Of a DNA stretch of 64,000 bases, positions 7,895-49,118 are shown piece after piece; the first letter of the stretch is position 1; the number at the start of each line of letters is the position of its first letter. The notes under the pieces were generated by a model. It saw only the letters and a list, made by a program, of their open reading frames with translations. It did no database searches and had not been told where the DNA came from. This stretch comes from Aquibaculum arenosum. Its GTDB lineage: Bacteria > Pseudomonadota > Alphaproteobacteria > Kiloniellales > DSM-21159. The stretch spans positions 186,001-250,000 of the forward strand of contig NZ_JARHUD010000002.1 of the NCBI RefSeq assembly GCF_029222965.1. Reading direction: 5' to 3'. Position numbers and translations under genes: made by a program.

Positions 7895-7943
7895 TGTTCT
7901 TTCCTCCAACTCTCGTTCTTGATCTCAGGCTTAATCTTTGGCG

Positions 7944-9236: not shown

Positions 9237-9421
9237 CACAGCATCCTCTTTCTCAAGCGATTCATGTTCCGGCAGGGATAGCGCGTCTCGCCGTCCGGCG
9301 AAAGCAATAGCGGCACGTTGAAGCAAGCGTGGGACGCGCCTTCAACACGCACACGCCATCCGTCTCGGTGAGGTCGGCATGGCATCGCGCTGCAGCGGAG
9401 GCCCTCGTCCCAGCCCAAAGC
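9237..9421. other. hom leader region with a doubtful small ORF
   Basis: This 185-nt gap precedes hom. A minus-strand frame at 9233-9418 (61 codons, TTG start, central residues HRDGWRVRVEGASHACF) covers almost all of it and overlaps the start of hom. It could be a leader peptide, a gene remnant or chance; I see no ribosome binding site or known family. The hom promoter may lie here or further upstream. Confidence 0.3.
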
Positions 9422-30555: not shown

Positions 30556-30659
30556 AAAACAGCAGAATCTGCGTGCAACCGATGGATCGGCAATTTCCTC
30601 ACGGGGACAACTGCACTAGGCTGCGCTTGCGCCGATCGATTAAGAGAACAGTCTAAGCA

Positions 30660-31817
30660 ATGACGCGTCCCCAAATTTACCTCATCCGCATGGGCATCTT
30701 TCTCGCCCTTGTGCTGGCCGCCGGCGCTGCGCTCTACCCGCAGTTGGCGGATGCCTTCTTCGCCAATGCGGTCCTGAACGGGATGATCCTCGGGGTCCTG
30801 GTTCTGGGAATAATCTACTCCTTTCGTCAGGTGTTCCTGCTGCGGCGAGAGATTGCGTTCCTTGCGCAGTTGAAACGCGAAAGCAGTGGCGGGCTGATCT
30901 TTCCCGGTCAGATGACCCAACTCGAAGCGCCGCGCCTGCTCGGTCCGATGGCGCGCATGCTACGCGAGCGCAAGGGACGTATCACCCTTTCCGCCATGGC
31001 GATGCGCACCCTGCAGGACGGCATCCGCCTGCGCATCGACGAAAGCCACGATATTTCCCGCTATCTGATTGGTCTGCTGATCTTCCTTGGCCTGCTGGGC
31101 ACCTTCTGGGGTCTGGTGGAGACGGTGAATGCCGTGGGCGAGACCATCGGCGCGCTCTCGCTGGGCGATGGTGATGCCGCCGCCTTGTTCGGGGACCTGC
31201 AGCGCGGGCTGCAGCAGCCGCTGGGCGGCATGGGCACGGCATTCTCCTCCTCGCTTTTCGGTCTCGCCGGCTCCCTTGTCCTGGGCTTTCTGGAACTACA
31301 GTCAGGCCAGGCGCACAACCGCTTCATGAACGAGATGGAGGAATGGCTCTCGGGCATGACCCGGATCGGCGGCAGCAGCTTCGGCGGCGGCGAAGGCGAA
31401 GCATCGGTGCCGGCCTACCTGCAGGCGTTGCTGGAGCAGACGGCCGACAGTCTGGAAAACCTCCAGAACACCATTCAGCGCGGCGAGGAGGATAAGCAGA
31501 CCGCAAATCGCAACCTGGCCACCCTGACCGAGCGCCTGACGCTGCTGACCGATCAGATGCGCACGGAACAGGAGGTCTTGCGCAAGCTGGCGGAAACCCA
31601 CGCCGCTATCCGCCCGCTCCTGGCACAGCTCTCGGAATCGCAGATGTCGAACGGCGGGATGGACGATGCCACCCGCGACCACATCCGCAACATCGACATG
31701 CACCTGAGCCGCATGGCCAACGAGATGCGCGGGGGCCGTGAACAGACTGTGGAACAGATCCGCAGCGAGATACGCCTGCTGGCGCGCACCATCGCCGCTT
31801 TGGCGGAAGAAGGCTGA
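30660..31817 (+). CDS. MotA/TolQ/ExbB-like proton-channel protein with a coiled-coil tail
   Basis: 385-residue inner-membrane protein with four predicted helices (about 9-27, 40-60, 134-160 and 190-213). The ion-channel signature is in helices 3-4 (LGLLGTFWGLVETVNA and GTAFSSSLFGLAGSLVLGF), as in MotA/TolQ/ExbB. A cytoplasmic loop lies between helices 2 and 3, and residues 230-385 form a cytoplasmic helical tail with heptad character. With the next gene it should form a proton-driven stator. Neither flagellar genes nor TolR/TolA/TonB lie nearby, so what it drives is unknown. The sigma/start signals upstream of ATG 30660 are weak. Confidence 0.85.
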   Translation: MTRPQIYLIRMGIFLALVLAAGAALYPQLADAFFANAVLNGMILGVLVLGIIYSFRQVFLLRREIAFLAQLKRESSGGLIFPGQMTQLEAPRLLGPMARMLRERKGRITLSAMAMRTLQDGIRLRIDESHDISRYLIGLLIFLGLLGTFWGLVETVNAVGETIGALSLGDGDAAALFGDLQRGLQQPLGGMGTAFSSSLFGLAGSLVLGFLELQSGQAHNRFMNEMEEWLSGMTRIGGSSFGGGEGEASVPAYLQALLEQTADSLENLQNTIQRGEEDKQTANRNLATLTERLTLLTDQMRTEQEVLRKLAETHAAIRPLLAQLSESQMSNGGMDDATRDHIRNIDMHLSRMANEMRGGREQTVEQIRSEIRLLARTIAALAEEG

Positions 31818-31835
31818 GGCCGGACCCAGCACCCC

Positions 31836-33623
31836 ATGTACTCGCTCAACCGCACCGGTCGCACTCGCTCCACCAACATCTGGCCCGGCTTCGTCGACGG
31901 GCTGGCGACGCTGCTGCTGGTGGTGATTTTCGTGCTGATGGTCTTTGTGATTGCGCAGTACTATCTGTCCGTCGCGCTCAGCGGACGAGACGAGCGCCTG
32001 GCCCGGCTTGACCAACAAATCGCCGAACTCAGCGAACTCCTGGCCCTGGAGCGCGAAACCACCACCGAGCTACGCAGCACGCTCGACAGCCTGACGAGCG
32101 AACTGCAGGATTCCATGGCCCTGCGCGAAACGCTGGTGCAGGAACTGGCGCGGGTGGAGGATCAGCGCGATTCCCTGGCTTCGCAGCTTTCCGCCCTGGC
32201 GGAGGAACACGAGGCCGTGGAGGAAGAACTGCTCGCTGTCACGGAAAGTCGCGAGCAGCTGCGTGAGGACCTGATGCTGGCGGAAGATCGCGGCGACAGC
32301 CTCGACCAGGCGCTGCTCGAGGCCGAGAACACCATCGAAGCCGATCGCGAGACCATTCAGGTTCAGCTGGCGGAACTGGCGCTGATGCGTGATCTGCGCA
32401 ACGAGCTCGAGCAGCAGATCGCCGACCGGGAAAACGACCTGCGGGCCACGGAGGCCCTGCTGGCCGAAAGCCGTGCCGCACTCGAGGACCTGGAGCGACA
32501 GGTGGCCGAACGCGAAGCAGTTCTGGCCAGCACCCGTGAAGAGCTGGAGCGCAGCGAAACGGACCTGTCGGAGACCCGCGCCGCCCTGGCGGAAAGCGAG
32601 GAACTGGCGACCCGGCAATCCGAGGAAATTGCAGCCCAGGCCGAAGCCCTGGAAGCCCGCGCGGATGAGATCCAGCTCACCCGCACGACCCTGGAGCGGA
32701 TGGAAGAAATACTGGCTGCGCGCGAAGCCATGCTGGCCGAACAAGAGGAAAGCCTCGAGGCTCGCACAGAAGAACTAGCCTTGAGCGAGGAAACCCTCTC
32801 CCGGGTGCGCGAACAGATCGCCGAGCGTGACCGGCGGATCGATGAGTTGGAAGCGCAACTGGCGCAGATGGACGAAAGCGAGCGCGAGCGGCTGGACGAG
32901 CTGCGGACATTGCGCGCGGCCCGCGACGCCCTGATGCAACGCCTGCAGGACCGTGGGCGCCAGGTGGAGTCGGAATCGGAACTTGCTGCCGAGGCGCAGC
33001 AGCGCGTTGAACTGCTCAACAGCCAGATCGACGCCTTGCGCCGGCAGCTTGCCGCCCTGCAAAGTGCCCTGGAGGCCACCGAAGAACGCGAGCGCGAGCA
33101 GCAAGTGCAGATCGCGGATCTCGGGCGCCGGCTCAACATGGCCCTGGCCAGTCGGGTGCAGGAACTGGCGCGCTATCGCTCCGAGTTCTTTGGGCGCCTA
33201 CGGGAGATCCTTGGCGACGACAATCCGAACGTCCGGATTGTCGGCGACCGCTTCGTCTTCCAGGCCGAGGTGCTCTTCCCCAGCGGCTCGGACGCCTTGC
33301 AGGCCGAGGGGCGGGCGCAGATCCGACAACTGGCGAGCCTGCTGCGAGACATCGCCGAACAGATTCCCGAAGACATTGACTGGGTTCTTCGGGTCGACGG
33401 CCACACCGACCGCCGACCAATCTCGACTCCGCTCTTCCCCTCGAACTGGGAGCTGTCGAGCGCACGGGCGATCTCGGTCGTGCGGCTCTTGATCCAGGAA
33501 GGAATCCCACCCAACCGCCTCGTGGCCGCCGGCTTCGGCGAGTACCAGCCGCTCGATCCGAGCGACAGCGAGACGGCCTTCCAACGCAACCGGCGCATCG
33601 AGCTCAAGCTGACCGAACGCTGA
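31836..33623 (+). CDS. MotB-like stator protein with a very long coiled coil and an OmpA domain
   Basis: 595-residue inner-membrane protein starting 18 nt after the MotA-like gene. The segment NIWPGFVDGLATLLLVVIFVLM carries the MotB-type transmembrane helix with the likely proton-carrying D21. Residues of about 48-450 are an almost unbroken coiled coil of Glu/Leu/Arg heptads (roughly 400 residues), far longer than the 100-150-residue plug/linker of MotB. The last 130 residues are an OmpA peptidoglycan-binding domain (VLFPSGSDAL, VDGHTDRRPI, RNRRIELKL) with the key Asp and Arg residues intact. The pair is thus a peptidoglycan-anchored proton channel of unknown output. Confidence 0.85.
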   Translation: MYSLNRTGRTRSTNIWPGFVDGLATLLLVVIFVLMVFVIAQYYLSVALSGRDERLARLDQQIAELSELLALERETTTELRSTLDSLTSELQDSMALRETLVQELARVEDQRDSLASQLSALAEEHEAVEEELLAVTESREQLREDLMLAEDRGDSLDQALLEAENTIEADRETIQVQLAELALMRDLRNELEQQIADRENDLRATEALLAESRAALEDLERQVAEREAVLASTREELERSETDLSETRAALAESEELATRQSEEIAAQAEALEARADEIQLTRTTLERMEEILAAREAMLAEQEESLEARTEELALSEETLSRVREQIAERDRRIDELEAQLAQMDESERERLDELRTLRAARDALMQRLQDRGRQVESESELAAEAQQRVELLNSQIDALRRQLAALQSALEATEEREREQQVQIADLGRRLNMALASRVQELARYRSEFFGRLREILGDDNPNVRIVGDRFVFQAEVLFPSGSDALQAEGRAQIRQLASLLRDIAEQIPEDIDWVLRVDGHTDRRPISTPLFPSNWELSSARAISVVRLLIQEGIPPNRLVAAGFGEYQPLDPSDSETAFQRNRRIELKLTER

Positions 33624-33645
33624 TCAATTCAAGGGGGTGCCGACC

Positions 33646-34134
33646 ATGACTCTGATCCGCCGCTGCAAGGCGACGCTCGTGGCCGGCATCGCGCTCTTCT
33701 TCACGCTGGTTGCCTTCGGCAACATCACCGACTACGGCAGCAATTTCGCCTTCGTGCAGCATGTGCTCTCGATGGATACGATCTTTTCGGATTCCGCCCT
33801 CTCTTGGCGAGCTCTCACCAGTCCAGCGATCCATCATGCGGCCTACGCCTTGATCATCGCCTGGCAGACGGTGACGGCCCTGCTCTGCTGGTACGGTGCC
33901 TACCGGCTTTGGGAGGCCAGCGATGATGGTATTGCCTTCGCCCAGGCTCGGCCCACGGCAGTGCTGGGCCTGACCGCGGGCTTCCTGCTTTATGCCGTGG
34001 GCTTCATGACCATCGGCGGCGAGTGGTTCGCCATGTGGCAGTCGGACACCTGGAACGGCCAGAGTGCCGCCGCGCGCTTTCTACTGATGATCGGGATCGT
34101 GCTGCTTGCCGTGCTTGCCCGGGAAGAGGCCTGA
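33646..34134 (+). CDS. DUF2165 small integral membrane protein
   Basis: 162-residue protein with four predicted transmembrane helices (about 10-28, 61-82, 100-122 and 140-158). The TLVAGIALFFTLVAFGNITDYGSNFAFVQHVLSMDT motif region and the GGEWFAMWQS segment are characteristic of DUF2165. No function is established for the family. I start at ATG 33646 with AAGGGGG upstream; a GTG at 33637 is in frame. It follows the MotB-like gene by 22 nt and could be part of the same transcript. Confidence 0.85.
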   Translation: MTLIRRCKATLVAGIALFFTLVAFGNITDYGSNFAFVQHVLSMDTIFSDSALSWRALTSPAIHHAAYALIIAWQTVTALLCWYGAYRLWEASDDGIAFAQARPTAVLGLTAGFLLYAVGFMTIGGEWFAMWQSDTWNGQSAAARFLLMIGIVLLAVLAREEA

Positions 34135-34142
34135 TCGCGCGG

Positions 34143-35057
34143 TCAACGAGGAGCGCGGCGCACCACCACCAACGCAACCCCCAGGACGGCAACGGCCATG
34201 CCGGCCAGGGCCAGCGGGCCCATCCGGTCGCCGAAGAGGATCCAGGCGGAGGTCGCGGTGGCCGGGGGCACGAGATAGAAGAGGCTGGCGGTGCGCGCCG
34301 CCTCGCCCAGTCGGATCAGCAGCATCAGCAGGCTGACCGCACCCAGCGACAGCACCAGGGTCAGCCATCCCAGCGCAAAGAGAAAATCACCCGTCCACTG
34401 GATCCGGTTGGTCTCGAAGACAAAGGCCACCACGCCGGTGACCAGGCCGGCCGCGGCGTACTGCACCAGGGCACCGCTCCAGAGGTGGACCTGACCGCAA
34501 AAGCGCTTCTGATAAACGACGCCCAGCGTCATGCCGAGCAGCGCACCCAGCGAGAAGACGATGGCCCAAAGGTCGAAGCCCTCGAAGACGCTCCCGCTGC
34601 CCGCCGGTGCCAGCTTCTCCGCCAGCACCAACGTCACCCCCATCAGGCCGAGCAGAAGGCCGAGCACCTGGCGCAGGGTCACCCGCTCGCCCAGCAACGG
34701 CCCGACGAGTACGGCCGTCAGGAGCGGCTGCAGACTGACGATCAGTGCCGAATAGGCCGCCGGCAGCCCCCGAGCCATGCCGCCGAAGGCGCCGCCAAGA
34801 TAGATCGCATGGACGAGGAACCCCACCACTGCGATATGGAAGACCTGGGTTTTCGACTCGAACTGCAATGCCCGGAAGAACAACAGTGGCGGCAGGAGCA
34901 GTGCCACGGTCAACGCGAAGCGCAGGGTTAGGAAGGTGAAGGGCTCCGCATAGGGCAGCCCCCAGATCGCGCCGATGAAGCCGGTCGACCAAAGCAGCAC
35001 GAAGACCGCCGGCATGCAGAAGAGGAGAGCGCGCTGAAGGGCTGCAGGCACGGGCAC
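34143..35057 (-). CDS. EamA/DMT-family membrane transporter
   Basis: 304-residue drug/metabolite-superfamily protein with two EamA repeats and about ten helices. Recognisable elements are LLWSTGFIGAIWGLPYAEPFTFLTLRF near the start and the repeat ends VGPLLGERVTLRQVLGLLLGLMGVTLV and LFGDRMGPLALAGMAVAVLGVALV. These are usually exporters of amino acids or other small metabolites; the substrate is unknown. The start is GTG at 35055-35057. It converges on DUF2165 with 8 nt between the stops. Confidence 0.88.
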   Translation of the reverse strand: MPVPAALQRALLFCMPAVFVLLWSTGFIGAIWGLPYAEPFTFLTLRFALTVALLLPPLLFFRALQFESKTQVFHIAVVGFLVHAIYLGGAFGGMARGLPAAYSALIVSLQPLLTAVLVGPLLGERVTLRQVLGLLLGLMGVTLVLAEKLAPAGSGSVFEGFDLWAIVFSLGALLGMTLGVVYQKRFCGQVHLWSGALVQYAAAGLVTGVVAFVFETNRIQWTGDFLFALGWLTLVLSLGAVSLLMLLIRLGEAARTASLFYLVPPATATSAWILFGDRMGPLALAGMAVAVLGVALVVVRRAPR

Positions 35058-35114
35058 CTGACCTGTGGCAGGAAAAGAGAGGCTGCGCTCGGCGGGGCCG
35101 GGTAAGCCGGCCCG

Positions 35115-36575
35115 CTAACCGCCGAGCTTACGCTTGAGGATCTGGTTCACGGTTCCCGGGTTCGCCTTGCCCTGGCTGGCTTTCATCACTTGGCCCACGA
35201 ACCAGCCGATGACCTTGGGATTGGCGCCGCTGCTATACTGCTCCACCTGGCCCGGGTTGTCGGCGATCACCTTGTCGACGATGGCCTCGATGGCGCCCTC
35301 GTCGGTGATCTGCTTCAGCCCCTTCTCCTCGACTATGGTCGCGGCATCCTTGCCGCTCTCCCACATCGCCTCGAAGACTTCCTTGGCAAGGCGGGAGGAC
35401 ACCGTCCCATCGGCAATCAGATCGAGCAGGCCGCCCAGCTTCGCCGCATCCACGGGCGCGTCATCCAGATCCGTGCCCGAGGCGTTCAAGGCACCGAAGT
35501 AGTTCACCGTCACCCAGTTGGCCGCGAGCTTCGGGTCACGCTTGCCGCCGGCCAGCACGGACTCATAGAAGGCCGCATTGGCCTGCTCCGCGACGAGCAC
35601 GCCGGCGTCATAAATCGACAGTCCGTAGTCCTCCATGAAGCGGCGCTTTTTCTCGTCGGGCAGCTCCGGCAGCTCGGCCGCCAAGCCGTCCACAAACTCC
35701 TGTTCCAGCACCAGCGGCAAGAGGTCGGGGTCTGGGAAGTAGCGATAGTCGTGCGCCTCCTCCTTGCTGCGCATCGAACGACTCTCGCCCTTGCGTGCAT
35801 CGAAGAGGCGGGTTTCCTGCTCGATCACGCCGCCGGCCTCCAACACCTCTACCTGACGGCGGGCCTCGTATTCGATGGCCTGCTGGACGTAGCGGATGGA
35901 GTTTACGTTCTTGGTCTCGGTGCGCGTGCCGAGCGGCTCGCCGGGCCGGCGCATGGAGAGATTGACGTCACAGCGCAGGCTGCCCTCATCCATGTTGCCG
36001 TCGCAGGTGCCGAGGTAGCGCAGGATGGAGCGCAGCTTGTGGATATAGGCCCCGGCCTCTTCCGCGGAGCCGATGTCCGGCTTGGAGACGATCTCCATTA
36101 GGGCAACACCCGAACGGTTGAGATCGACGAAGGTGCGGCGCGGGTCCTGGTCGTGCATCGACTTGCCGGCATCCTGCTCCAGATGCAGGCGTTCGATGCC
36201 AATGTCCTTGGTGCTGCCGTCGGGCAGATCGATGGTCAGCACGCCCTCCCCCACGATCGGCTGCTGATACTGGCTGATCTGATAGCCCTGAGGCAGGTCG
36301 GGATAGAAGTAGTTCTTGCGCTCGAAAACCGAGGTCAGGTTGATCTTCGCTTTCAGGCCGAGCCCGGTCCGCACGGCCTGCGCCACGCACTCGCGGTTCA
36401 GCACGGGCAGCATGCCCGGCATGGCGGCATCAATCAGCGACACCTGAGAATTCGGCGTCGCACCGAAAGCCGTGGATGCGCCGGAAAAGAGCTTCGCATT
36501 GGAAATGACCTGGGCGTGGACCTCCAGCCCGATGACCATTTCCCACTTACCGGTCTCACCTTCGATCAGAGCCAT
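35115..36575 (-). CDS. gatB: Asp-tRNA(Asn)/Glu-tRNA(Gln) amidotransferase subunit B
   Basis: 486-residue kinase/transamidation subunit of GatCAB, which converts misacylated Glu-tRNA(Gln) and/or Asp-tRNA(Asn). The catalytic cradle ([18 protein letters not shown]-like [50 protein letters not shown]) and the C-terminal YqeY-like tail domain are present. The frame opens at a GTG at 36609-36611, but ATG 36573-36575 ([16 protein letters not shown]) gives the usual length; neither has a strong ribosome binding site. It is the last gene of gatC-gatA-gatB. Confidence 0.95.
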
Positions 36576-36626
36576 GCCCGTCGCCCGTCCACTTGCTTCA
36601 TTCCGTGACACATTCTCATCGTTGGT

Positions 36627-38105
36627 TCAGTCACCGGCGATGAAGGCCGGCTCCGCCGTGAAAGCGGCGGCTTCTTCCAGCACGCCAGCCGTCCGCACCA
36701 GAGTCTCCTCGTCGAAGGCCCGACCGATGAGCTGCAGACCCAGCGGCAGACCATCCATCGACAATCCCGCCGGCACCGAAATGCCAGGCAGGCCCGCCAG
36801 ACTGGCCGGCACCGTGAAGACGTCATTGAGGTACATGGCGACGGGATCATCCATGTTGGCACCCATGGCGAAAGCTGCCGAAGGCGCTGTCGGGGTCAAG
36901 ATCACGTCTACGGTCTCGTAGGCAGCCTTGAAATCCCGCGCAATCAAGGTGCGCACCTGCCGGGCCTTGTTGTAATAGGCGTCGTAATAGCCGGCCGAGA
37001 GCACGTAGGTGCCGATCAGGATGCGGCGTTTGACCTCGTCGCCGAAGCCCGCCCCTCGGGTGGCTTCGTACATCTCGTCCAGGGTTTCACCCTCGACCCG
37101 CAGTCCGTATCGCACGCCGTCATAGCGCGCCAAGTTGGAGGAGGCCTCCGCGGGCGCGACGATGTAATAGGTCGGCAGCGCGTATTTGGTGTGTGGCAGG
37201 GAAATCTCCACCGGCTCCGCACCGGCTGCCTTGAGCCAGTCGATGCCCTGTTGCCAAAGGCTATCGATCTCCGCCGGCATGCCGTCGACACGATACTCCT
37301 TGGGAATGCCCACCTTCAGGCCGCGAACATCGCCGGTCAGAGCCTGCTCGAAGTCCGGCACCGCCACATCCACCGAGGTGGAGTCCTTGGCGTCGAAACC
37401 GGCCATGGAGCGCAGCAGAATGGCGCAGTCCCGCACCGAGCGCGCCATGGGACCGGCCTGGTCCAGGGAGGAGGCAAAGGCGATAATGCCCCAGCGCGAA
37501 CAGCGCCCGTAGGTGGGCTTCAGCCCCACGACTCCAGAGAAGGAAGCCGGCTGACGGATCGAGCCGCCGGTATCGGTGCCCGTTGCTCCCAGGGCGCAGC
37601 GCGCGGCCACGGCCGCCGCCGATCCGCCGGAAGAGCCTCCAGGCACCAGCTTCTCATCGCTGCCATTACGTCGCCAGGGATTGACCACCCCGCCATAGGT
37701 GCTGGTCATGTTGGAGGAGCCCATGGCGAACTCGTCCATATTCACCTTGCCCAGCATCACCGCCCCATCGCGCCAGAGATTGGCAGTGACGGTGGACTCA
37801 TAGGCCGGCTTGAAGTCCTTGAGGATATGGCTGCCAGCGGTCGATTCCACCCCTTCGGTGCAGAAGAGGTCCTTGATCGCAAGCGGTATGCCCTCCAGCG
37901 GGCCGGCCTCGCCCTTGGCGAGCCGAGCATCCGAGGCATCGGCCATGGCCAGGGCCTTTTCCGGCGTCTCCACCGTGTAGGCGTTGAGCGGCCGCGCCGC
38001 CTCGACCGCCGTCAGGTGCGCTTCGGTTAATTCGCGTGCAGAAATCTTCTTGGCGGCAAGGGCATCGCGCGCCTGCGCAAGCGTCATACGGGTGGGAGCG
38101 CTCAT
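36627..38105 (-). CDS. gatA: Asp-tRNA(Asn)/Glu-tRNA(Gln) amidotransferase subunit A
   Basis: 492-residue amidase-signature enzyme that releases ammonia from glutamine or asparagine for GatB. The Ser-cis-Ser-Lys triad is K78 (PLAIKDLF), S158 (GGSSGGSAA) and S182 ([10 protein letters not shown]). Length is standard. Its ATG shares one base with the gatC stop (TAATG), so translation is coupled. Confidence 0.97.
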
Positions 38106-38392
38106 TATTCCACCACCTTCGGGACAACAAAGAAGCCATGAGCAGAATCGGGCGCGTTGCGCAGAACCGGCTCAGGATCGCCCCCGTCGGTCACCCGATC
38201 CTCACGCAGGGGCTGGCCGCGCTCAACGACCGAGGTCATGGGCGGCACGTCCTTGGTGTCGAGTTCACCCAGTTGCTCCACCCAGCCGAGGATGTTGTTC
38301 AGTTCGCCCACCAGTGCCTCGGCCTGTGCCGGCTCGACCCGAACCCGCGCAAGCTTGGCGATGTGCCGGACCGTATCCAGGTTGACCGACAT
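38105..38392 (-). CDS. gatC: Asp-tRNA(Asn)/Glu-tRNA(Gln) amidotransferase subunit C
   Basis: 95-residue GatC, the small belt subunit stabilising GatA-GatB. It has the family pattern [17 protein letters not shown] at the N-terminus, [18 protein letters not shown] in the middle and LREDRVTDG near the end. It is first in the gatCAB operon and overlaps gatA by 1 nt. Confidence 0.95.
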
Positions 38393-38521
38393 GCTGCCCT
38401 ATCCTCGTTGTTACGTCGTGCTGATCCGAAACTCGGAATGGCGCGGAACCTAGCACCGGCCCCGGTGACCGGCAAGGCGGGCGCGCGCGCAATCACCCCC
38501 AGAAATCGATCGCCTGCACCT

Positions 38522-40042
38522 TCAATAACGCGGGCCCGACCAGCCGAAAGCAACGAAGGCAATGCGCGTCGCGAAAATCCCGCCCATGGTCGTCATCAGC
38601 GCCCAGAAGATGACATGCGGTTCCGCGGAGAGGCCGAAGTACTGCAGGTAAAGCGACAGCCCCAGCGACCAGAGAATCACGGTCTCAGCGTAAAAGGAAT
38701 GATGCAGGATGGCGTTACCGCTGTCACTTCGGATCATATCGCGGATGATTGCACCGCCAGCAGCCGTCAAAGCGGCCAGTACAGGGCCCCAGAGCCAGAG
38801 AGGATGGCGGCCAAACTCCACCGCGATGGTCACCGCCAGCACCGTTAGCGCGGCAATGCCCGCTGTGTCGAACACTTCCAGCAAGATCTGCGGCTTCGCG
38901 CGCTGCCGCACGATGAGAATGAGATTCACGAGGTCAAAGAGGAGCAACGATCGCCCGCGCAAGCGATCGAGAATACGGTTGATTACATAGCCCACAGCGA
39001 GAGTTGAAAGCACGATATACACGTAAATGGGGTAATCGAAAATGTAAGGCTCGCGCAGGATGAGCACATCGCGAACCACTCCCCCACCCAGCGCCGGCAA
39101 GGACGCCAACACCACCACACCGAAAATGCCGTAATCTCCCGCTCGGGCGATCACCGCGGCGGAGATGGAGAAGGATACCATCCCAACGATCAGAATGATC
39201 TCAAACCAAGCGCCGTAGAGCGCAATGTCCAACAGGACGGGCAGGACGAAACGTCTCTCGATGACCTGGCGTTCGCCGCTCTCATAGACCCGTTCCAACC
39301 CCCAGTTGAAACGTTCGACAAGACCTGGAGCAACCGAGGCACGCGAGAAGAGCGCAACGACATCTTCCTCAAGAATCGGTAAAGGGTGTGATTCCAGGCC
39401 CCACAGATGTCGTTCGGAAAGTTCGTGATAACCGGCCAGGCGATCTATGACGAAGCCGTCCACTTCTCCCGTCTCAAGAAGATGGAGACTCTGTGCCAGG
39501 TCGACTGTCTGGACGATTACGTCGGCATGCGCCGGATCGTCACGGAACCTGTTGAAAGTGGCACCAAGATCATAGTCCTCGACCACGGCGATTCGCAGCT
39601 GCTCGCGTATCAGTGCGTCCAAGAGTTCCGATAGGGTATTGGCTGTCGGCATTCGGTCAGCCGGAAGAAAGATGTTCTCGGTCGCAAAGCGGATCGGATC
39701 TGAGAAGTGGGCGTAGTCTGCACGTTCCGGTGTCGGGTACGCGCCCAGCACAGCGTCGATGCTGCCCTCTTCAACACCCTTGAGAGCCTGTTCCCAGGGA
39801 ACCTGGTCCAACACCACGCTCAACCCAGCATGTTCCGCCGCCGCTCTGAAGGTGGTCACGTCGATGCCGGTGACATGCGCTATCTCGCTGTCCGAGCGCA
39901 GGAATTGATAGGGTGCTTGCAGTGACCAGGCTACACGCAGCACGCGGTCGTGACCCTGGGCGGCCGTCTCACCAGCACACACCACAACCGCCAGTAGGCA
40001 ACAGAGTAAGGAGAGAAAGGCGCGGAACGGGGACAAGGACAC
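38522..40042 (-). CDS. Periplasmic solute-binding domain fused to TRIC/UPF0126 channel, copy 1
   Basis: 506-residue two-part membrane protein. Residues 1-29 are a signal peptide. About 33-265 form a type-3 solute-binding domain of the amino-acid-binding kind (LRVAWSLQAPYQFL, TGIDVTTFRAAAEHAGL, VPWEQALKGVEEGSIDAVLGAYPTPERADYAHFSDPI). Residues 278-500 are a seven-helix TRIC/UPF0126 domain (YicG-like) with both diagnostic loops, GGGVVRD (319-325) and AGGAIIRD (428-435). TRIC proteins are trimeric K+ channels or, for YicG, proposed glycine transporters. A ligand-gated channel or single-chain binding-protein transporter is inference. The start is GTG at 40040-40042. It lies downstream of its paralogue by 201 nt. 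Confidence 0.85.
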   Translation of the reverse strand: MSLSPFRAFLSLLCCLLAVVVCAGETAAQGHDRVLRVAWSLQAPYQFLRSDSEIAHVTGIDVTTFRAAAEHAGLSVVLDQVPWEQALKGVEEGSIDAVLGAYPTPERADYAHFSDPIRFATENIFLPADRMPTANTLSELLDALIREQLRIAVVEDYDLGATFNRFRDDPAHADVIVQTVDLAQSLHLLETGEVDGFVIDRLAGYHELSERHLWGLESHPLPILEEDVVALFSRASVAPGLVERFNWGLERVYESGERQVIERRFVLPVLLDIALYGAWFEIILIVGMVSFSISAAVIARAGDYGIFGVVVLASLPALGGGVVRDVLILREPYIFDYPIYVYIVLSTLAVGYVINRILDRLRGRSLLLFDLVNLILIVRQRAKPQILLEVFDTAGIAALTVLAVTIAVEFGRHPLWLWGPVLAALTAAGGAIIRDMIRSDSGNAILHHSFYAETVILWSLGLSLYLQYFGLSAEPHVIFWALMTTMGGIFATRIAFVAFGWSGPRY

Positions 40043-40111
40043 GACTCTTGGCAGAGGTGGTGTTTACACGCTTTGGACGTAGAGTTTGCCCAACCAGTTA
40101 CCGTCAAGAAA

Positions 40112-40122
40112 GCCGATTCGGC
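40112..40122 (-). promoter_or_regulatory. Palindrome in the copy 1 leader, possible operator
   Basis: GCCGATTCGGC is an 11-nt perfect palindrome (central A/T) 70 nt upstream of the copy 1 start. The corresponding position upstream of copy 2 keeps 10 of 11 bases. Conservation in a duplicated leader suggests a protein-binding site or RNA structure, but no regulator is identified. Confidence 0.4.
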
Positions 40123-40243
40123 CAGAACTGTAACGAAAAAGTGACCACAGCCATTGATTCACGCTGCGGGAATGTACAAACACAACTAAAATTTCCGAGG
40201 TTCCTTTGTCCGGTCTGATCTCGCGAAACGTGCTTCCTTATGA

Positions 40244-41758
40244 TCAATAGCGAGGGCCCGACCAGCCGTAGACCACGAATGCGATGCGCGTCGCGAAGAT
40301 CCCGCACATGGTGGTCATCAACGCCCAAAAGATGACCTGCGGATCGGCGGAAAGCCCGAAGTACTGCAGATAGAGTGAGAGCGGCAGCGACCAGATAATC
40401 ACCGTCTCCGCGTAGAAGGCGTGGTGGAGGATCTCATTGCCGCTGTCCTTGCGGATCATGTCCCGGATAATCGCCCCGCCGGTAGCCGTCAGCGCTGCGA
40501 GCACAGGGCCCCAGAGCCAGAGTGGCTCGCGCCCGAACTCGACCGCGATGGTGACTGCCACGACGGTAAAGGCAGCTATGCCGGCGGCGTCGAAAATTCC
40601 CATTAGCAGCTTCGGCTGAATCCGCTGGCGCATCAAAAGCACCAGGTTGACGAAATCGAAGAAAAGCAGGGAGCGGCCGCGCAATCGTGCCAGCACACGA
40701 TTGAAGAGGAAGCCTCCCACCAGAGTGCCGAGCACAATATAGACGTAAACGGGAAAGGCGAATATGTACGGTTCGCGCAAGATGAGGACATCGCGTACCA
40801 CGCCGCCGCCCAAAGCGGGGAGCGACGCCAGCACAACGGCGCCGAACAGGCCGTAGTCGCCGGTACGGGCAATCACCACGGCCGATATGGAGAACGCCAC
40901 CATCCCCACAATCAGGATGATCTCGAACCAGGCACCGTAGAGCGCCATGTCGAGCATGACCGGTAAGACGAAACGTCGCTCGATGACGCGTTGCTGATCA
41001 TCCTGATAGACCTGCTGCAGGCCCCAGTTGAAATATTCGACCAGAGCGGAATCCACAGAGGCTCGCGAAAAAAGCGCGACGATATCTTCCTCATGAATCG
41101 GGACAGGATGCGACTGAAGGCTCCACATGTGTCGCTCAGACAGTGCGTTATACCCCGCCAAGCGATCCATGACGAAGCCGTCCACTTCTCCCCGTTCCAG
41201 CAGGTGGAGGCTTTGCGCCAAGTCCGCTGTCGGAACGACCAGGTGGGCGTGCTCCGGGTCGTTGCGGAAGCGGTTGAAGCGGTCGCCAAGTTCGAAATCT
41301 TCGATCGCTGCAATCCGCAGGCCGTCGCGCGCCAGTGCGTCCAGCAGTTCTTCCAGGGAACGTGCATGGGGCATGCGATCGCGGAGCAGAAAGATACTTT
41401 CCGTCGCGAAGCGGATAGCGTCGGAGAAGTAGGCATACTCCGCGCGCGCCGCCGTCGGAAAGGCCCCGAGAACAACGTCGATACTACCCTCTTCCACTCG
41501 TTCCAAAGCTTCTTCCCAGGGCAACTGACTGAAGATCACACTCAGGCCGGCATGCGCCGCCGCAGCCCGAAACATCGCCACATCGATGCCGGTGACTTGT
41601 TCCACCTCGCTGCCCGAGCGCAAAAACTGATAGGGTGCCTGCAGGGACCAAGCCACGCGAAGGACGCGATCATGCCCTTGGGATCGGCTTTCTTCTGGAA
41701 AAAGCGCGACCGTCAGTAAGCAACACAAGATGGAAAGCAGCGCACGAAGAGCTAACAA
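40244..41758 (-). CDS. Periplasmic solute-binding domain fused to TRIC/UPF0126 channel, copy 2
   Basis: 504-residue paralogue of copy 1 with the same order: signal peptide (ALRALLSILCCLL), type-3 solute-binding domain (LRVAWSLQAPYQFLRSGSE, TGIDVAMFRAAAAHAGL, LPWEEALERVEEGSIDVVLG) and a TRIC/UPF0126 domain with GGGVVRD and TGGAIIRD. The membrane half is more conserved between copies than parts of the binding domain, where divergence (for example LDQVPW versus FSQLPW, EDYDLG versus EDFELG) could alter ligand choice. The start is TTG at 41756-41758 with AAGGGTG about 7 nt upstream. It is the promoter-proximal copy. Confidence 0.85.
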   Translation of the reverse strand: MLALRALLSILCCLLTVALFPEESRSQGHDRVLRVAWSLQAPYQFLRSGSEVEQVTGIDVAMFRAAAAHAGLSVIFSQLPWEEALERVEEGSIDVVLGAFPTAARAEYAYFSDAIRFATESIFLLRDRMPHARSLEELLDALARDGLRIAAIEDFELGDRFNRFRNDPEHAHLVVPTADLAQSLHLLERGEVDGFVMDRLAGYNALSERHMWSLQSHPVPIHEEDIVALFSRASVDSALVEYFNWGLQQVYQDDQQRVIERRFVLPVMLDMALYGAWFEIILIVGMVAFSISAVVIARTGDYGLFGAVVLASLPALGGGVVRDVLILREPYIFAFPVYVYIVLGTLVGGFLFNRVLARLRGRSLLFFDFVNLVLLMRQRIQPKLLMGIFDAAGIAAFTVVAVTIAVEFGREPLWLWGPVLAALTATGGAIIRDMIRKDSGNEILHHAFYAETVIIWSLPLSLYLQYFGLSADPQVIFWALMTTMCGIFATRIAFVVYGWSGPRY

Positions 41759-41832
41759 CAGAGCACCCTTGGAGGGACTGGTGTTCAGGCCCTTTATGCG
41801 TACACTCTGCCCATCCAGGTGCTGCCGGGGAA

Positions 41833-41843
41833 GCCGATTCGGT
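41833..41843 (-). promoter_or_regulatory. Imperfect palindrome in the copy 2 leader
   Basis: GCCGATTCGGT matches the copy 1 palindrome at 10 of 11 positions and lies at nearly the same distance (75 nt) from its start codon. It is 77 nt from ruvX on the other strand, so it could act on either gene. Confidence 0.35.
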
Positions 41844-41919
41844 CAGGCTGCGACAAAAGGCAGGCTAAGCGACCATCCGTGACTCGCTGCGAACCGCTCG
41901 TAATCAGGGTCTTTCTCCC

Positions 41920-42417
41920 ATGACCATCATCGATCTGCGAGACCTGCCTTCGCGCATGCCTGCGCGCAGCCGGCCTCTTGGGCTCGATCTCGGCGAGAAG
42001 ACCATTGGACTGGCGCTGGGAACCAGTGATTTCACCCTTGCGTCCCCACTGGAGACGATCCAGCGCAGCCGGTTTCGCGAGGACGCGGCGAAGCTGACGG
42101 ACCTGTGCAAAACCCACAACGTCGGCGCGCTCATCATCGGCCTGCCGCTGAACATGGACGGTACGGAAGGGAAGCGCGCGCGCTCGACCCGGCAGTTTGC
42201 GCGCAATCTCTCAGAGATCGCGTCGCTTAACCTACCAATTGCCTTCTGGGACGAGCGCCTCTCCACGGCTGTGGTGGAACGCTTTCTGATCGGAGAGGCG
42301 GATATGAGCCGGCGCCGGCGTGGCGAGGTGGTCGACAAGATGGCGGCCGCTTACATCCTGCAAGGCGCCTTGGACTTCCTCCGGCACACCACGCCACCCG
42401 CAAGAACGTCGAATTGA
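41920..42417 (+). CDS. ruvX: Pre-16S rRNA processing nuclease / Holliday junction resolvase-like YqgF
   Basis: 165-residue RNase H-fold protein of the essential YqgF/RuvX family, implicated in 5' maturation of 16S rRNA. Active-site motifs are PLGLDLGEKTIGLAL (first Asp), GLPLNMDGTEG, FWDERLSTAVVE (second acidic pair) and DKMAAAYILQ (last Asp). Length is typical, with a short alphaproteobacterial N-terminal extension. The upstream neighbour is divergent, so it has its own promoter within 161 nt. Confidence 0.93.
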   Translation: MTIIDLRDLPSRMPARSRPLGLDLGEKTIGLALGTSDFTLASPLETIQRSRFREDAAKLTDLCKTHNVGALIIGLPLNMDGTEGKRARSTRQFARNLSEIASLNLPIAFWDERLSTAVVERFLIGEADMSRRRRGEVVDKMAAAYILQGALDFLRHTTPPARTSN

Positions 42418-42680
42418 ACAGACCCGGGTGTCTACCAGCACCCCTTATTTCTTGGAATCACGGGAACAAGTAGGTAGCAACAGCGGCTGACAGCACAGGA
42501 AGTCGACCGAGGCGAGTCAGGTTTGCGCCTAATCCCGGATTCTCTGGAGCCTTTGTCCCGTTCAGGCTAGAAAAACTTGAGGGTCTCGGTGAGGAAGGGC
42601 TCTTTCGCATCAGCAGCCCATAGCGATGACCAGCTTGGGCGAAGTGCAGTTGCAGACATAACATATGGCGGCAGTCAGGA

Positions 42681-44516
42681 TTGAAGCACTTACTCTATCG
42701 TCTGCTTAGAGCAGGGACCCTCCGCTGGACCGGAGCGGCCTTCGCGATTCTGCTCCCCATATCCGCCGCCGCACAGAACGAGGAGCCGACGCCGGACAGC
42801 GAAAGCACACCGCCGGGCCTCGCCTACACCGCCGAGATTGAAGGTGATCTTTCCAATAGACTTCGCAGTCTGATTGATGAGAGCGCCGCCCTTCTCACGG
42901 AAACGGAAAGGCTACCCGCCAGCGAGGCGGCCCTGCGTCGTCGCCTTCGTGACGATATCGATCGCATCGCCCGCGTATTGCGTTCCGAGGGCTATTACCG
43001 AAACGAGATCGAATCGGTGGTCGACGACAGTGCCGACCCGATCCACATTCGCATCGACGTCGAGCCTGGACCGCGCTTTCGGCTCGAAAACTACGAGATC
43101 AGCTATCAAGAGCCGGTTCCGGACAGCGCGCCACGAACGGCCGAGGACGTCGGCCTCGAGTTGGGGCAGCCAGCAAGAGCGGCAGCTCTGCAGGCGGCGG
43201 CACGCGAGATTCCCTTGTGGCTCAATCAGAATGGCTACCCCTTCGGCCGCGTGGCTAATACCCGCTATCTGGCCGACATGGACGACGCCACCGTCCGCGC
43301 TGAAATCATCGTCGCACCCGGTGAACCCGCAGCCTTCGGACCGCTGTCCATCATCGGGGTGGAATCCGTGCGCAAGGATTATCTCCACCGCATTTTAGGT
43401 TGGGAGGAAGGGCGAACTTACGACCAGCGTGAGACCGAGCGGGTCCGTCGGGAACTGTCTCGCACCGGCCTGTTCGATACGGTCATTGTCGACACTCCCG
43501 ACGAAGTCGAAGCCGACGGCGAGCTCCCGGTCACGGCAGAGGTGGCCGAGCGTCCCCACCGCACCATCGGCGCCGGCGTTTCCTACTCCACCGACGAAGA
43601 TGGACCTGGGATCGAGGTGTTTTGGGAACACCGCAACCTCTTCTCGGAAGCAGAGAGCCTGCGCCTCGAGGCCAGCGCCACCCGGCCGCGCCAAAGCCTC
43701 ACAGCCGACTTCCGCAAGCCCAACTACCTTCGTCTTGAACAGGCGCTGCTGTTCGAGAATGAGTTGCGGCATGAGCGCAGCGAGGCATTCGATGAACTGA
43801 CCAGCAGTCACTTTCTCGGGCTAGAACGGCGCTTGAGCGACAATTGGACCGCGCGTGCCGGCCCCTCACTCCTGCTCACCCGCGTGACAGAAGATGATGA
43901 AACGGAGTTGTACGGGCTCGTCGGGCTGACCGGCGGCGTCAGCTACGACGGCAGTGACGATCCCCTGAACCCCACCAAGGGCGCAAGATTGGACGCCAGC
44001 GTCACGCCCTACATCAGCGCCGTGGGCGAATCCGCGCGCTTCGTCCGGGCTGAGACCAGCGGATCCTTCTACCTCTCGCCCTTCGACAGCGACCGCCTGG
44101 TGCTTGCAGCTCGCGGGCGCTTCGGCACCTTGGCCGGCAGTTCCCATGGCGACATTCCGGCAAACCTGCGCTTTTACGCCGGCGGCGGCGGCTCGGTGCG
44201 CGGCTTCGCGTTTCGCAGCGTCGGGCCGCTGGACGATGATGACGACCCGATCGGCGGCCGGGCCGTTGCCGAGATCGGCCTGGAAGCGCGCATTAAGATC
44301 ACCGACACCATTGGTATCGTGCCCTTCGTGGATGCGGGCCAGGTCTACAAAACATCCTGGCCGACGGGTGAAGAGCTGCGCATCGGTGCCGGTTTGGGCC
44401 TGCGCTACTACACCAGCTTCGGACCGCTGCGCCTCGACGTCGCCACGCCGGTGAACCCGCGCAAGGGCGTTGACCGCGCCTATCAGTTCTACATCTCCAT
44501 TGGACAGTCCTTCTAA
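42681..44516 (+). CDS. tamA: Autotransporter assembly outer-membrane protein TamA
   Basis: 611-residue Omp85-family protein. The frame has no ATG near the start, and TTG 42681 opens a signal peptide (HLLYRLLRAGTLRWTGAAFAILLPISAAAQ). Three POTRA domains lie at about 50-270, then a 16-strand barrel with the VRGF loop (GGGGSVRGFAFRSVG, about 512-526) and a C-terminal strand ending YQFYISIGQSF, the usual BAM-recognised aromatic end. With TamB it forms the TAM complex across the periplasm for outer-membrane protein and lipid transport. tamB follows after 4 nt. Confidence 0.92.
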   Translation: MKHLLYRLLRAGTLRWTGAAFAILLPISAAAQNEEPTPDSESTPPGLAYTAEIEGDLSNRLRSLIDESAALLTETERLPASEAALRRRLRDDIDRIARVLRSEGYYRNEIESVVDDSADPIHIRIDVEPGPRFRLENYEISYQEPVPDSAPRTAEDVGLELGQPARAAALQAAAREIPLWLNQNGYPFGRVANTRYLADMDDATVRAEIIVAPGEPAAFGPLSIIGVESVRKDYLHRILGWEEGRTYDQRETERVRRELSRTGLFDTVIVDTPDEVEADGELPVTAEVAERPHRTIGAGVSYSTDEDGPGIEVFWEHRNLFSEAESLRLEASATRPRQSLTADFRKPNYLRLEQALLFENELRHERSEAFDELTSSHFLGLERRLSDNWTARAGPSLLLTRVTEDDETELYGLVGLTGGVSYDGSDDPLNPTKGARLDASVTPYISAVGESARFVRAETSGSFYLSPFDSDRLVLAARGRFGTLAGSSHGDIPANLRFYAGGGGSVRGFAFRSVGPLDDDDDPIGGRAVAEIGLEARIKITDTIGIVPFVDAGQVYKTSWPTGEELRIGAGLGLRYYTSFGPLRLDVATPVNPRKGVDRAYQFYISIGQSF

Positions 44517-44520
44517 GCCC

Positions 44521-47500
44521 GTGAGCGATCAAACCAATCCTCAACCGGCCCCACGCCGGCGACGCTGGCTATCCCGCATCCTCTGGGGGCTTTTCATCCT
44601 CCTGGTGGGCTTGCCGCTTTTGCTCTTGGGCGGCCTCTATCTCGCGCTGCAAACCGAAGGCGGGCGCGCCACTCTCGCCACCCTGATCGAAGACGTCGTG
44701 AGTTCTCCGGATGGGCTGCAGCTTGAAATCGGCCGGTTGGATGGCCCCCTGCCCCAGCAGATCGTGCTGCGCGACCTGGTCTTACGGGACCCCGAGGGCG
44801 TGCTCATCGACCTCGACTGGGCGGAACTCGCCTGGCGCCCCTGGTCGCTGCTGCAAAGGCGGGTAGAGATCGAGCATCTCAGGGCGAACCGGCTGGAGCT
44901 TCAGCGCCTTCCGGCCGGTAGCGACACTGAGGAAGAGCCGGCGCCAAGCGACGCACCGCTGGACATTGCTCTGCCGGAGCTGCCGGTCAGCTTGCAACTT
45001 GAGCAACTCGAGGTACAGGAGCTCTATCTTGGGCAGGAGATCGCCGGCACGCCGGCCCTGCTCGGCCTTTCCGGCAGGGCCAGGGTCGACCGCGAGGGTG
45101 CGCTGGACACGCAGCTGGCTGTGGAACGCAAGGACGAGCAACCCGGCCGGTTGGATCTGGAACTGGCGCTGACCGCGGGTGGCGAACGGCTGACGGCGCG
45201 GATCGATGGCGCCGAACCCGCCGGTGGGCTGATCGCCGAGCTGCTCGACCTCCCGGAGCGTCCTCCCGTAAGCATCCGACTCGAAGGGGACGGCCCACCC
45301 GAGGGCTGGCGCGCGCAGTTGGTTGCGGAGGCTGACGCAACAGCCCGGCTCGAAGCCGATCTCCTGCTACACAGTCTGGAGCCGCTTGATCTCTCGCTTG
45401 AAGCGAAAGGCCAGGCTACGGCCTTGGTGCCGGAAGACTTTCGTTCGCTCGTAGGGGATGAACCCAGCCTCGCGTTGCGCGTGCAGCGCACCGAGGAAGG
45501 GGCCTTGCGGGTGCAGGATCTTCGAGCTGGTGTTGCGGCGCTACAAGCGACGGGCCACCTCGCCTTGCAGGCGGATGGCCAGACGCTGGACGGCGCCCTC
45601 GACCTGGAACTGCTGGATCCCGAAGCGATCGCAGCGCTCACCCAGCCGGCGCGCTTCGACGGCGCCATCCTTAACCTGACGGTGAACGGCAGCCTGAATC
45701 AACCGATTCTGCAGGCCAACGCCAACCTAACAGCGCTTTCATTGCCCGAAGCGACGGCCGAAAGTCTGCGCCTCACCCTTGACGCCAAGACCGAAGCTCC
45801 GCTGGACGGGCCGGAAGCTGCGGTATTGTTCGACATCTCCTTCGCCGCAGAAGCTCTCGAGGCCAGCGAAGCGGCCCTCGAGCAGTTGGCCGATGGCGAT
45901 CTGACTTTGCAGGGCCAGGGGCGCTATGGTCTTGCCGAGAAAAGATTGACGGTGATCGCTCTTGATGCCGGACTGAACGAGCTGGCGCTGTCGTTGTGGG
46001 GAGAAGCGACGCTGGCCGACGCCGGTCCCACGGCCGACCTGGGCATGAGACTGGATCATCCGAAGCTCGAGCGCTTCGCCGGCCTCTCGGGCCTTGACCT
46101 CTCAGGTGCACTGGGGATCGACCTGCAGGCCAACCTGGCAAGTGACGGCAGCCTGGATGCCCGGCTCAATGCCCTTACCGATCGCCTGCAACTGGGCATC
46201 CCGATCGCAGAAGCGGTGCTCGGCGAGCGCCCCGGCCTCTCGATGCAACTGCGCCGCGATGCCAGTGGTCGCATCCTGCTTGACGAAGCACGCCTGGATG
46301 CAGCAACAGCAGCGCTCACCGCCTGGGGCACCCTGGACGCCGCCTTCTCGGAAGTTGACGCCGGCTATCGCTTGGATGTCTCGGCACTGGAGCCCTTGGG
46401 CGACGCCCTGGGACAGCCTCTTGGCGGCTCGCTCTCGCTCGAGGGGATCGCGCAGGGCGCCTTGGCGACGCCCCGGGTGGAGGCACGGCTGACGGGCGAA
46501 GAGCTGTCGCTGCCGGGCGAAGCGCTCAGAACGCTCAATGCAGCGCTCAACGTGGACCTAGACGCCCCAGGCCCACGTGGTCGTCTTGAAGTGAACGGCT
46601 CTGAGGGGCAGTACGGCCCCCTCTCCTCGGAGGTGGACTTTCAGCTCGTCGAGCAGGAGCTGACACTCGACAATCTGAACCTGCGCCTCGGAGATGCCGC
46701 CAGCGTGAGCGGGAATCTGGTCTGGCCGCTGGACGGGCGACCCGGCCGCGGTGCGGTCGAGGGGAACGTGCCGCAGTTGGGGGCGCTTGCGAGTATTGCC
46801 GGCGTCGAGGCGGGCGGTAGCCTGACCCTGAATGCGGAGCTCCTGCCCCAAGAAGCACAGCAGGCCCTGCGCGGGACTCTCGCGCTGCGCAGCGTCAGGA
46901 TGGGACCGGCGAGCGAACCCAGCGTGACAGGCGAGCGGGTCGACATGCAGTTCACGCTAAGCGACCTGCTGGGTGCGCCAGGCGTGCAAGCCGGCCTGAC
47001 CGCGGCGGGATTGTCCGCGGGCGGGGCTGAAATAGAGACTGCGGAAATCAACGCCACCGGAGACCTTGCGGCGCTGCGGATCGATCTGGACGCCGATGGA
47101 CAAGTGGCCGAAGATCCTTTGCGACTGCGGGCGCAGGCCGACGTGGGACTCGAAGGACCCATTACTCGAATCCAGCTGCCCCTGCTCACGGCCGACTGGG
47201 GCGAGGAAACCGTCGCTCTCGCCAGTCCCGCCACTTTGACCATCGCCCCGAACGATCTGGCGCTGCAATCCCTGGACCTGACCCTGCTGGGAGGTAGCCT
47301 GGCGGGCGAGGCCCGGCAAGAGGGCGACACCATTCAGGCCGATCTGCGGCTTGCGGATATCCCTTTGGATCGTCTGGCCGATCTGGCGGGTGGCAGCGAC
47401 GTCACTGGTGAACTCTCCGGCGAGCTCTCCCTCGCGGGGTCAATGAACGCACCGCGTGGCCAGCTCAATCTCTTCGCCGATGACTTCGCTTCTGGCACAG

Positions 47501-48978: not shown

Positions 48979-49014
48979 GGGTCGTGAGGAGCCCCGCGGC
49001 CTGTGATAGGAACA

Positions 49015-49032
49015 GCGCTCCAATGCGAGCGC
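49015..49032. terminator. Small hairpin in the tamB-purB gap
   Basis: GCGCTC-CAATGC-GAGCGC makes a 6-bp stem with a 6-nt loop 37 nt after the tamB stop and 87 nt before purB. There is no T-run, so termination is only a possibility. Confidence 0.35.
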
Positions 49033-49118
49033 CCCCGGTCGGTGCAGCGTAGTCTATGCGGCGCCTGCTCTTTCGGGCCTGCACACAGCCGTGACGACAG
49101 CCATTTGAGGAACGAGAC

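Follow-up and report, generated by a model that had tools for sequence, protein, structure and literature searches.

The prokaryotic TRICs of solved structure form trimers in which each protomer has its own pore, and UPF0126 proteins of the YicG/YadS type have been linked to glycine use. In GluR0, the ligand domain is interrupted by the pore. GluR0 is described as a K+ channel that carries its ligand-binding domain in the same chain (PMC13099474), and insertion of the pore into the ligand domain is also reported for the NMDA-type glutamate receptors in PMC549065, which further describes bacterial Cys-loop channels of alphaproteobacteria with a PBP-I or Cache domain fused in front. On the TRIC side, SaTRIC gave single-channel currents in bilayers and possesses a cytoplasmic lock, D99-R139-D140-Y155, and a constriction at F20/F106 (PMC5477506); in the topology given there, the short TM2-TM3 helix is extracellular, the TM5-TM6 one is intracellular and the C-terminal end of TM7 is cytoplasmic. 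For 11 bacteria, UPF0126 members are reported as important in the utilisation of glycine, with a predicted role as glycine transporters (PMC12173739). A role of prokaryotic TRICs in metabolite efflux was suggested by an earlier study in bioinformatics, which PMC5401562 cites.

The window analysed here (the whole stretch of DNA, 64,000 nucleotides) carries a gene that a sequence-only reading had described as encoding one polypeptide with a signal peptide, a complete type-3 solute-binding protein (SBP) domain and a complete seven-helix TRIC domain with both glycine-rich loops. We found that gene 1 is a single open reading frame with a GTG start and no internal stops, and hmmscan, the domain search suggested in that reading, detected PF00497 once and PF03458 twice in the one frame, while phmmer matched the protein to the TRIC structure 5wuf (1.7e-11) and to the amino-acid SBP 3hv1 (6.1e-08). 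The N-terminal hydrophobic segment, centred at residue 15, is signal-like, and both loops are present as described. A second gene, absent from the earlier reading, lies directly upstream of gene 1 on the same strand, 201 bases apart, and in both genes the two Pfam families exceeded their curated cut-offs. The features of the tandem pair are summarized in Table 1.

Table 1. Coordinates of the two fusion genes in the window and of the features predicted in them
Feature	Position	Strand	Description
Fusion gene 1	38522..40042	(-)	506 aa; signal-like segment, type-3 SBP, TRIC domain
Probable signal peptide, gene 1	39953..40042	(-)	residues 1-30, approximate; hydrophobic peak at residue 15
SBP_bac_3 domain, gene 1	39245..39937	(-)	residues 36-266; PF00497, 57.5 bits, 1.6e-15 (hmmscan)
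Arg107, predicted alpha-carboxylate ligand	39722..39724	(-)	kept in 20/21 fusions; equivalence to GlnBP Arg75 inferred from AncQR profile alignment
Asp200, predicted alpha-amino ligand	39443..39445	(-)	kept in 21/21 fusions; equivalence to GlnBP Asp157 inferred from AncQR profile alignment
Joint, gene 1	39200..39280	(-)	residues 255-281, last SBP helix to TM1; within indel-free stretch 245-300
TRIC domain, gene 1	38534..39196	(-)	residues 283-503; PF03458 (Gly_transporter) x2, 72.4 bits, 2.8e-20; predicted fold of paralogue matches 5wuf
First pore loop GGGVVRD	39068..39088	(-)	residues 319-325
Extended TM3-TM4 loop	38873..38977	(-)	residues 356-390; cytoplasmic by TRIC topology
Second pore loop AGGAIIRD	38738..38761	(-)	residues 428-435
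Fusion gene 2	40244..41758	(-)	504 aa; paralogue of gene 1 in tandem, with the same architecture and 75% identity
SBP_bac_3 domain, gene 2	40970..41659	(-)	residues 34-263; PF00497, 5.6e-14; predicted LAO fold, Z 19.3
TRIC domain, gene 2	40256..40918	(-)	residues 281-501; PF03458 x2, 2.9e-21; predicted 5wuf fold, Z 23.8

The fold was predicted for gene 2 as a single chain, from seven aligned rows that included two added TRIC rows from viral contigs, and the model had a mean pLDDT of 74.4 and a pTM of 0.66; a first model, of gene 1 and from five rows, was poor (pLDDT 58.3) and was set aside. When VIA-align was applied to the Foldseek matches, model residues 277-502 superposed on CpTRIC 5wuf with Z 23.8 and 2.2 Å, 192 of the 195 residues in the chain being aligned, and the solved TRICs gave Z 21.5-23.8 over seven entries, which is consistent with the seven-helix fold that had been claimed. 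Model residues 28-268 matched the LAO-binding protein with Z 19.3 over 219 aligned residues, and the GluR0 ligand core fitted the model with Z 16.9. The N-terminal part was assigned to the type-3 SBPs on its Pfam match above the cut-off and the bilobed fold of the model.

The same architecture, a search for which had been proposed in the earlier reading, recurs in the window's class, Alphaproteobacteria, where 13 of 385 genomes carry the fusion, and five genomes of this class yielded other matches, namely a lone SBP (G043, G269), a lone TRIC (G110, G240) or an NMT1 fusion (G257). Within the window's order, the fusion was detected in 3 of 61 genomes, these being the source genome with its two copies, G006 (59% identity) and G013 (43%), and the other 10 matching genomes matched in the SBP part only. 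A second class of the phylum, probably Gammaproteobacteria, gave four SBP-only matches and no fusion in 369 genomes, and a sample of the phylum gave the fusion in 3 of 398 genomes. A 7.9-kb contig from a metagenome bin assigned to Thiohalocapsa (L032) also carries the fusion and may be misbinned. All 21 fusions in our alignment A3 matched both Pfam families; this alignment leaves out further G273 copies, the second G303 copy (L072) and a truncated G279 copy, and L072 was taken into the trees and into the spacing comparison of 22 fusions only. A scan of a contig collection returned 3 loci, a number that does not count the wider family since the scan used two short patterns, one of which fits the window's own sub-group. 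Among plasmids, 7 records matched, all in the SBP part and none covering >80% of the query. Viral contigs yielded two plain TRICs and no fusion, and none in a further search. One plain TRIC gene, on an IMG/VR contig (L102:2191-3348), is near a gene that we named by eye as Zot-like (filamentous phage), so this contig probably includes host flank.

In a TRIC tree, the fused domains together with two SBP-less TRICs (L047 and L048, from G110 and G240) split from 18 canonical alphaproteobacterial TRICs with support of 100/99. Excluded from the trees were L086 (truncated), L090 (sub-threshold) and second-half duplicates; the tree with the NMT1 fusion and the AU test omitted the long-branched L056, and the SBP tree omitted L021, which has a stop inside. 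The NMT1 fusion, L115:2362-4197 in G257, consists of an NMT1/THI5-like domain (PF09084, 89.5 bits) joined to a TRIC domain (PF03458, 107 bits), and when the tree is rooted on canonical TRICs, it branches off first among the members of the fusion side, the others being grouped with support of 99/95. It shares W279, W416, W418 and E453 with the fusions, all absent at those places in the 18 canonical TRICs, and it has intermediate or canonical spacings (52 and 41), a different linker and a second RD that reads LD. This is a single case, no further NMT1-TRIC fusion being found in the 298 genomes searched with it. Thus, TRICs on this side of the family have been fused to two unrelated periplasmic binding domains. 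One clade comprising the SBP-3 fusions alone is compatible with the data (p-AU 0.12), and the SBP tree, in which the fused rows need 2 changes, is weak at depth; therefore, SBP loss in G110 and G240 and two separate SBP gains are both possible, and L047 and L048 represent either an SBP loss or a pre-fusion form. In these two proteins, the TM3-TM4 loop is long (68 residues) and Met replaces the first RD Arg.

GlnBP contacts the alpha group of its ligand by Gly68, Thr70 and Arg75, and Asp157 is a ligand contact of its small domain (PMC7400645). A profile alignment with AncQR and the GlnPQ domains placed R107 and D200 of gene 1 on the Arg and Asp of this amino-acid site, the residue assignment being our own reading. 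The first Thr of the GxTxT motif (position 102) is Thr in 12 of 21 fusions, as in canonical amino-acid SBPs; the window copies carry Tyr or Phe there, and what they bind may thus be unusual rather than a plain amino acid. The second Thr (position 104) is kept in 13 of 21, both window copies included. The best profile match of the SBP part was 6h30, the GlnPQ substrate-binding tandem. Identity was higher in the TRIC than in the SBP domain for 169 of 210 fusion pairs, and gene 1 and its same-genus relative have identities of 0.72 and 0.48, respectively, in these two domains. The faster SBP divergence would fit sensors diversifying on a more constant effector, although a generally faster SBP rate may also account for it.

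Between the two domains, residues 245-300 (56 residues) aligned with zero gaps across the 21 fusions, the identity of which to gene 1 goes down to 21%. Column scores were 2.03 bits for the linker (residues 267-281, 15 columns), 1.96 for TM1-3, 2.05 for TM4-7, 1.82 for the SBP and 1.23 for the TM3-TM4 insert, and since TM4-7 is conserved as much as the linker, the linker is not exceptional. P268 occurs in 19 of 21 fusions and W279 in 20 of 21. In the gene 2 model, one helix spans residues 255-273 and TM1 starts at 276, with block pLDDT values of 66, 65 and 72 over residues 251-280. These data suggested that the joint may be a rigid connection. TM1 starts with 'WF' not only in the fusions but also in the SBP-less TRICs of G110 and G240 and in the NMT1 fusion, indicating that this pair belongs to the TRIC part and that W279 is not necessarily in contact with the SBP.

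The TRIC domain exhibits the glycine-rich kinks and the D-R-D-Y cytoplasmic lock of its family. Upon alignment, the SaTRIC lock fell on D392 (20/21), R434 (20/21), D435 (19/21) and Y451 (19/21) of gene 1, and because these residues are so widely kept, the gate is probably still there. The SaTRIC constriction aligned to F291/L399; residue 399 (38846-38848) is a Leu at the F106 place in gene 1, the tandem copy and the other 19 fusions of A3 having Phe or Tyr. The spacing from the first RD to the TM4 Asp is 55-69 residues in 22 fusions versus 43-49 in the 18 canonical TRICs, and that from the TM4 Asp to the second RD is 42-43 versus 40-41; W418 and E453 are both present in 22/22 fusions and in 0/18 canonical TRICs. 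The window copies lack the SaTRIC N144 of the three-fold cation site, and this absence was rejected as a sign of new gating because the canonical TRICs of alignment A4, inspected by eye, lack N144 too. The published topology places the N terminus outside, which would allow direct attachment of a binding domain in the periplasm to TM1. One divergent fusion of G170 (L056, at L071:5891-7369) has lost R107, R324, R434 and part of both glycine motifs, and is perhaps a non-conducting paralogue.

In the window, the tandem pair is flanked on one side by OmpA-type, DUF2165, EamA, gatB, gatA and gatC genes and on the other by ruvX, Omp85/POTRA (TamA-like), TamB and purB-like lyase genes. The earlier statement that no ABC ATPase or kinase is adjacent proved true of these ten flanking genes, among which we also found no ABC permease and no signalling gene, and Pfam detected no ABC ATPase, ABC permease or kinase part in the fusion protein. 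The same-genus relative (59%) carries its fusion in the same place, between ruvX and gatC, and a single ordinary TRIC with two repeats is encoded elsewhere in the source genome, on C24. Elsewhere, 242 ORFs from 20 regions were clustered, and beyond the same-genus pair (the window and L029), no neighbour occurred in more than 4 of 20 regions; RND-pump genes (4 regions) and a few pairs recur, and no recurring amino-acid operon was seen around the fusions in the 20 regions. Shared neighbours could be missed in the G+C-rich L030, L058, L069 and L070, where the ORF picker, which takes the longest frame, chose antisense frames. The RND-pump genes adjoin the fusion in two of their four regions, L068 (G362) and L071 (third copy of G170), where HlyD membrane-fusion and RND pump genes are closely downstream on the same strand, the G362 pump being assigned by similarity to that of G170. 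In L065 (G308, 5412-9602), the fusion follows an aspartate decarboxylase gene and overlaps the start of a downstream dCache-guanylate cyclase gene. We regard the cyclase and pump contexts as leads only. Riboswitch or other RNA control of the fusions was considered and rejected: there was no Rfam match in window positions 30000-50000, the Rfam matches of 17 related loci were only tRNAs and one rpsB sRNA, and scans for promoters and terminators yielded no excess over shuffled sequence.

Selection acts on both domains of the tandem copies, for which Nei-Gojobori dN/dS values were 0.11 in the SBP, 0.05 in the joint (15 codons) and 0.08 in the TRIC domain, dS being near saturation at 1.6. That the fusion is an artefact, with mis-assembly or a frameshift joining two genes, or a pseudogene, has a negligible probability: nothing in the window speaks for it, and the only doubtful record is the Thiohalocapsa contig, whereas two intact tandem copies have dN/dS of ~0.1, the same-genus relative has the gene at the same place, and fusions are present in two one-contig genomes (G125 and G170). 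Nor is the fusion a matter of chance, because relatives exist at 59% and at 42-43% and 21 fusions align end to end. The fusion architecture is real, old and maintained. It is very improbable that the binding domain is merely tethered and acts independently of the TRIC domain, even though both domains occur alone in nature and two TRICs of the clade lack an SBP, since the joint is conserved and of fixed length, a second SBP family sits on a related TRIC and the two parts have a long shared history. A functional coupling of the SBP to the membrane domain is favoured by the absence of indels in the joint, by the retention of the predicted amino-acid-binding residues and by the NMT1 domain on a related TRIC. 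The sequence-only reading had proposed that the binding domain gates or feeds the channel; the coupling in this proposal is favoured, and as far as sequence goes, either gating or feeding may be its mode.

For the coupling itself, we propose that both genes encode putative inner-membrane receptor-channels in which the ligand gates the TRIC pore, to which we assign about an even chance; in this proposal, the placement in the periplasm, the class of ligand, the trimer, the conduction of ions and the gating itself are all putative. The N-terminal type-3 domain would close clam-like in the periplasm around an amino acid or a closely related compound, and the closure would be transmitted from the last SBP helix through the short fixed-length joint to TM1 of the TRIC pore, where it would change the opening so that K+ or another small cation crosses. 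With one pore per protomer in TRIC trimers, each pore would carry its own sensor. On the strength of the fixed-length joint, the retained lock, the topology in the literature and the GluR0 precedent, we favour such ligand-gated opening over the delivery of substrate to a carrier, which we consider appreciably less probable although a serious competitor. In the latter case, the SBP would capture glycine or a similar amino acid and the TRIC domain would carry it inward or outward with no ATPase, comparable to the SBDs of GlnPQ, the tandem of which is the best profile match of the SBP part; the metabolite efflux suggested for prokaryotic TRICs points the same way, as do the Pfam family name and the role of UPF0126 members in glycine use, a role compatible with either a carrier or a channel. 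Nonetheless, the short indel-free joint seems unlike a delivery tether, which would need to dock and undock, a passive pore would supply no energy to strip the ligand from a high-affinity SBP, and the fusions are not surrounded by a recurring amino-acid operon. Improbable, in our estimate, is a signalling receptor whose TRIC domain does not conduct and serves mainly as a membrane transducer or anchor that passes the ligand state to a partner. The overlap with the guanylate cyclase gene in G308 and the position ahead of HlyD/RND pump genes in G362 and G170 would suit such a role, as would an extended TM3-TM4 loop able to contact a partner and the degenerate pore motifs of L056; those contexts, however, come from one and two genomes, each lock residue is retained by 19 or 20 of 21 fusions, and the ten window flanks contain no signalling gene.

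Compared with the described systems, the fusions share with prokaryotic TRICs (SaTRIC, CpTRIC, SsTRIC and RsTRIC; UPF0126, PF03458) the seven-helix fold, both glycine-rich kinks and the cytoplasmic lock residues, and differ from them in the N-terminal SBP, the separate clade, the longer spacings and W418/E453. YicG/YadS-type UPF0126 proteins belong to the same Pfam family, but they have no SBP, and the PRK10578 match is weak (36 bits versus an equivalog cut-off of 326). The logic of a ligand domain and a pore in one chain, together with the fit of the ligand core to the model, likens the fusions to GluR0; in contrast to GluR0, in which a K+-channel pore module is inserted in the ligand domain, their SBP is uninterrupted and placed before an unrelated pore, the membrane part being TRIC. 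The PBP-I- and Cache-fused Cys-loop channels likewise have an extra solute-binding domain ahead of a ligand-gated channel, but the pore and the binding superfamily differ. GlnPQ-type ABC importers and SBP sensor kinases (BvgS, 3h7m) carry a homologous binding domain on a membrane protein, and the fusions are without their ATPase, ABC permease and kinase part. Among the literature matches listed (the best 20 of 4,474 for one query), titles and abstract openings contained no description of a TRIC/UPF0126-SBP fusion. In the abstract of the TRIC family survey by Silverio and Saier in 2011, prokaryotic TRICs with domains fused at the N or C terminus are reportedly mentioned, and that survey may therefore already list the SBP-TRIC architecture.

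Only tentatively, then, do we suggest a new class of bacterial ligand-gated channel, in which periplasmic binding domains of type 3 (in one lineage, of the NMT1 family) would be mounted on a distinct TRIC group, the pore of each protomer would be gated by its own sensor, and the sensors would diversify while the pore stays more constant. If so, this would be a third, separately evolved wiring of an SBP to an ion pore, beside the glutamate receptors and the PBP-fused Cys-loop channels, and it would reveal which stimulus a TRIC channel opens to. With the sensor built into the TRIC protein, one can test directly whether the ligand alters ion flow or itself crosses, and gating, if true, would offer another natural design of an amino-acid-gated channel and possibly a biosensor scaffold. 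The fusion, which recurs in scattered alphaproteobacteria, suggests a bacterial channel or carrier under the control of an external small molecule.

At least two full-length copies (two or three) are present in 6 genomes (G000, G170, G273, G303, G341 and G408), and G279 has one full copy and one truncated. The two tandem copies of the window may answer to two ligands or to two concentration ranges, as the faster SBP divergence would suggest. The multi-copy genomes G170, G273, G279, G303, G341 and G408 are small (1.2-1.6 Mb), and an ORF near the fusion in G303 appeared F-box-like by eye, features that hint at host-associated bacteria.
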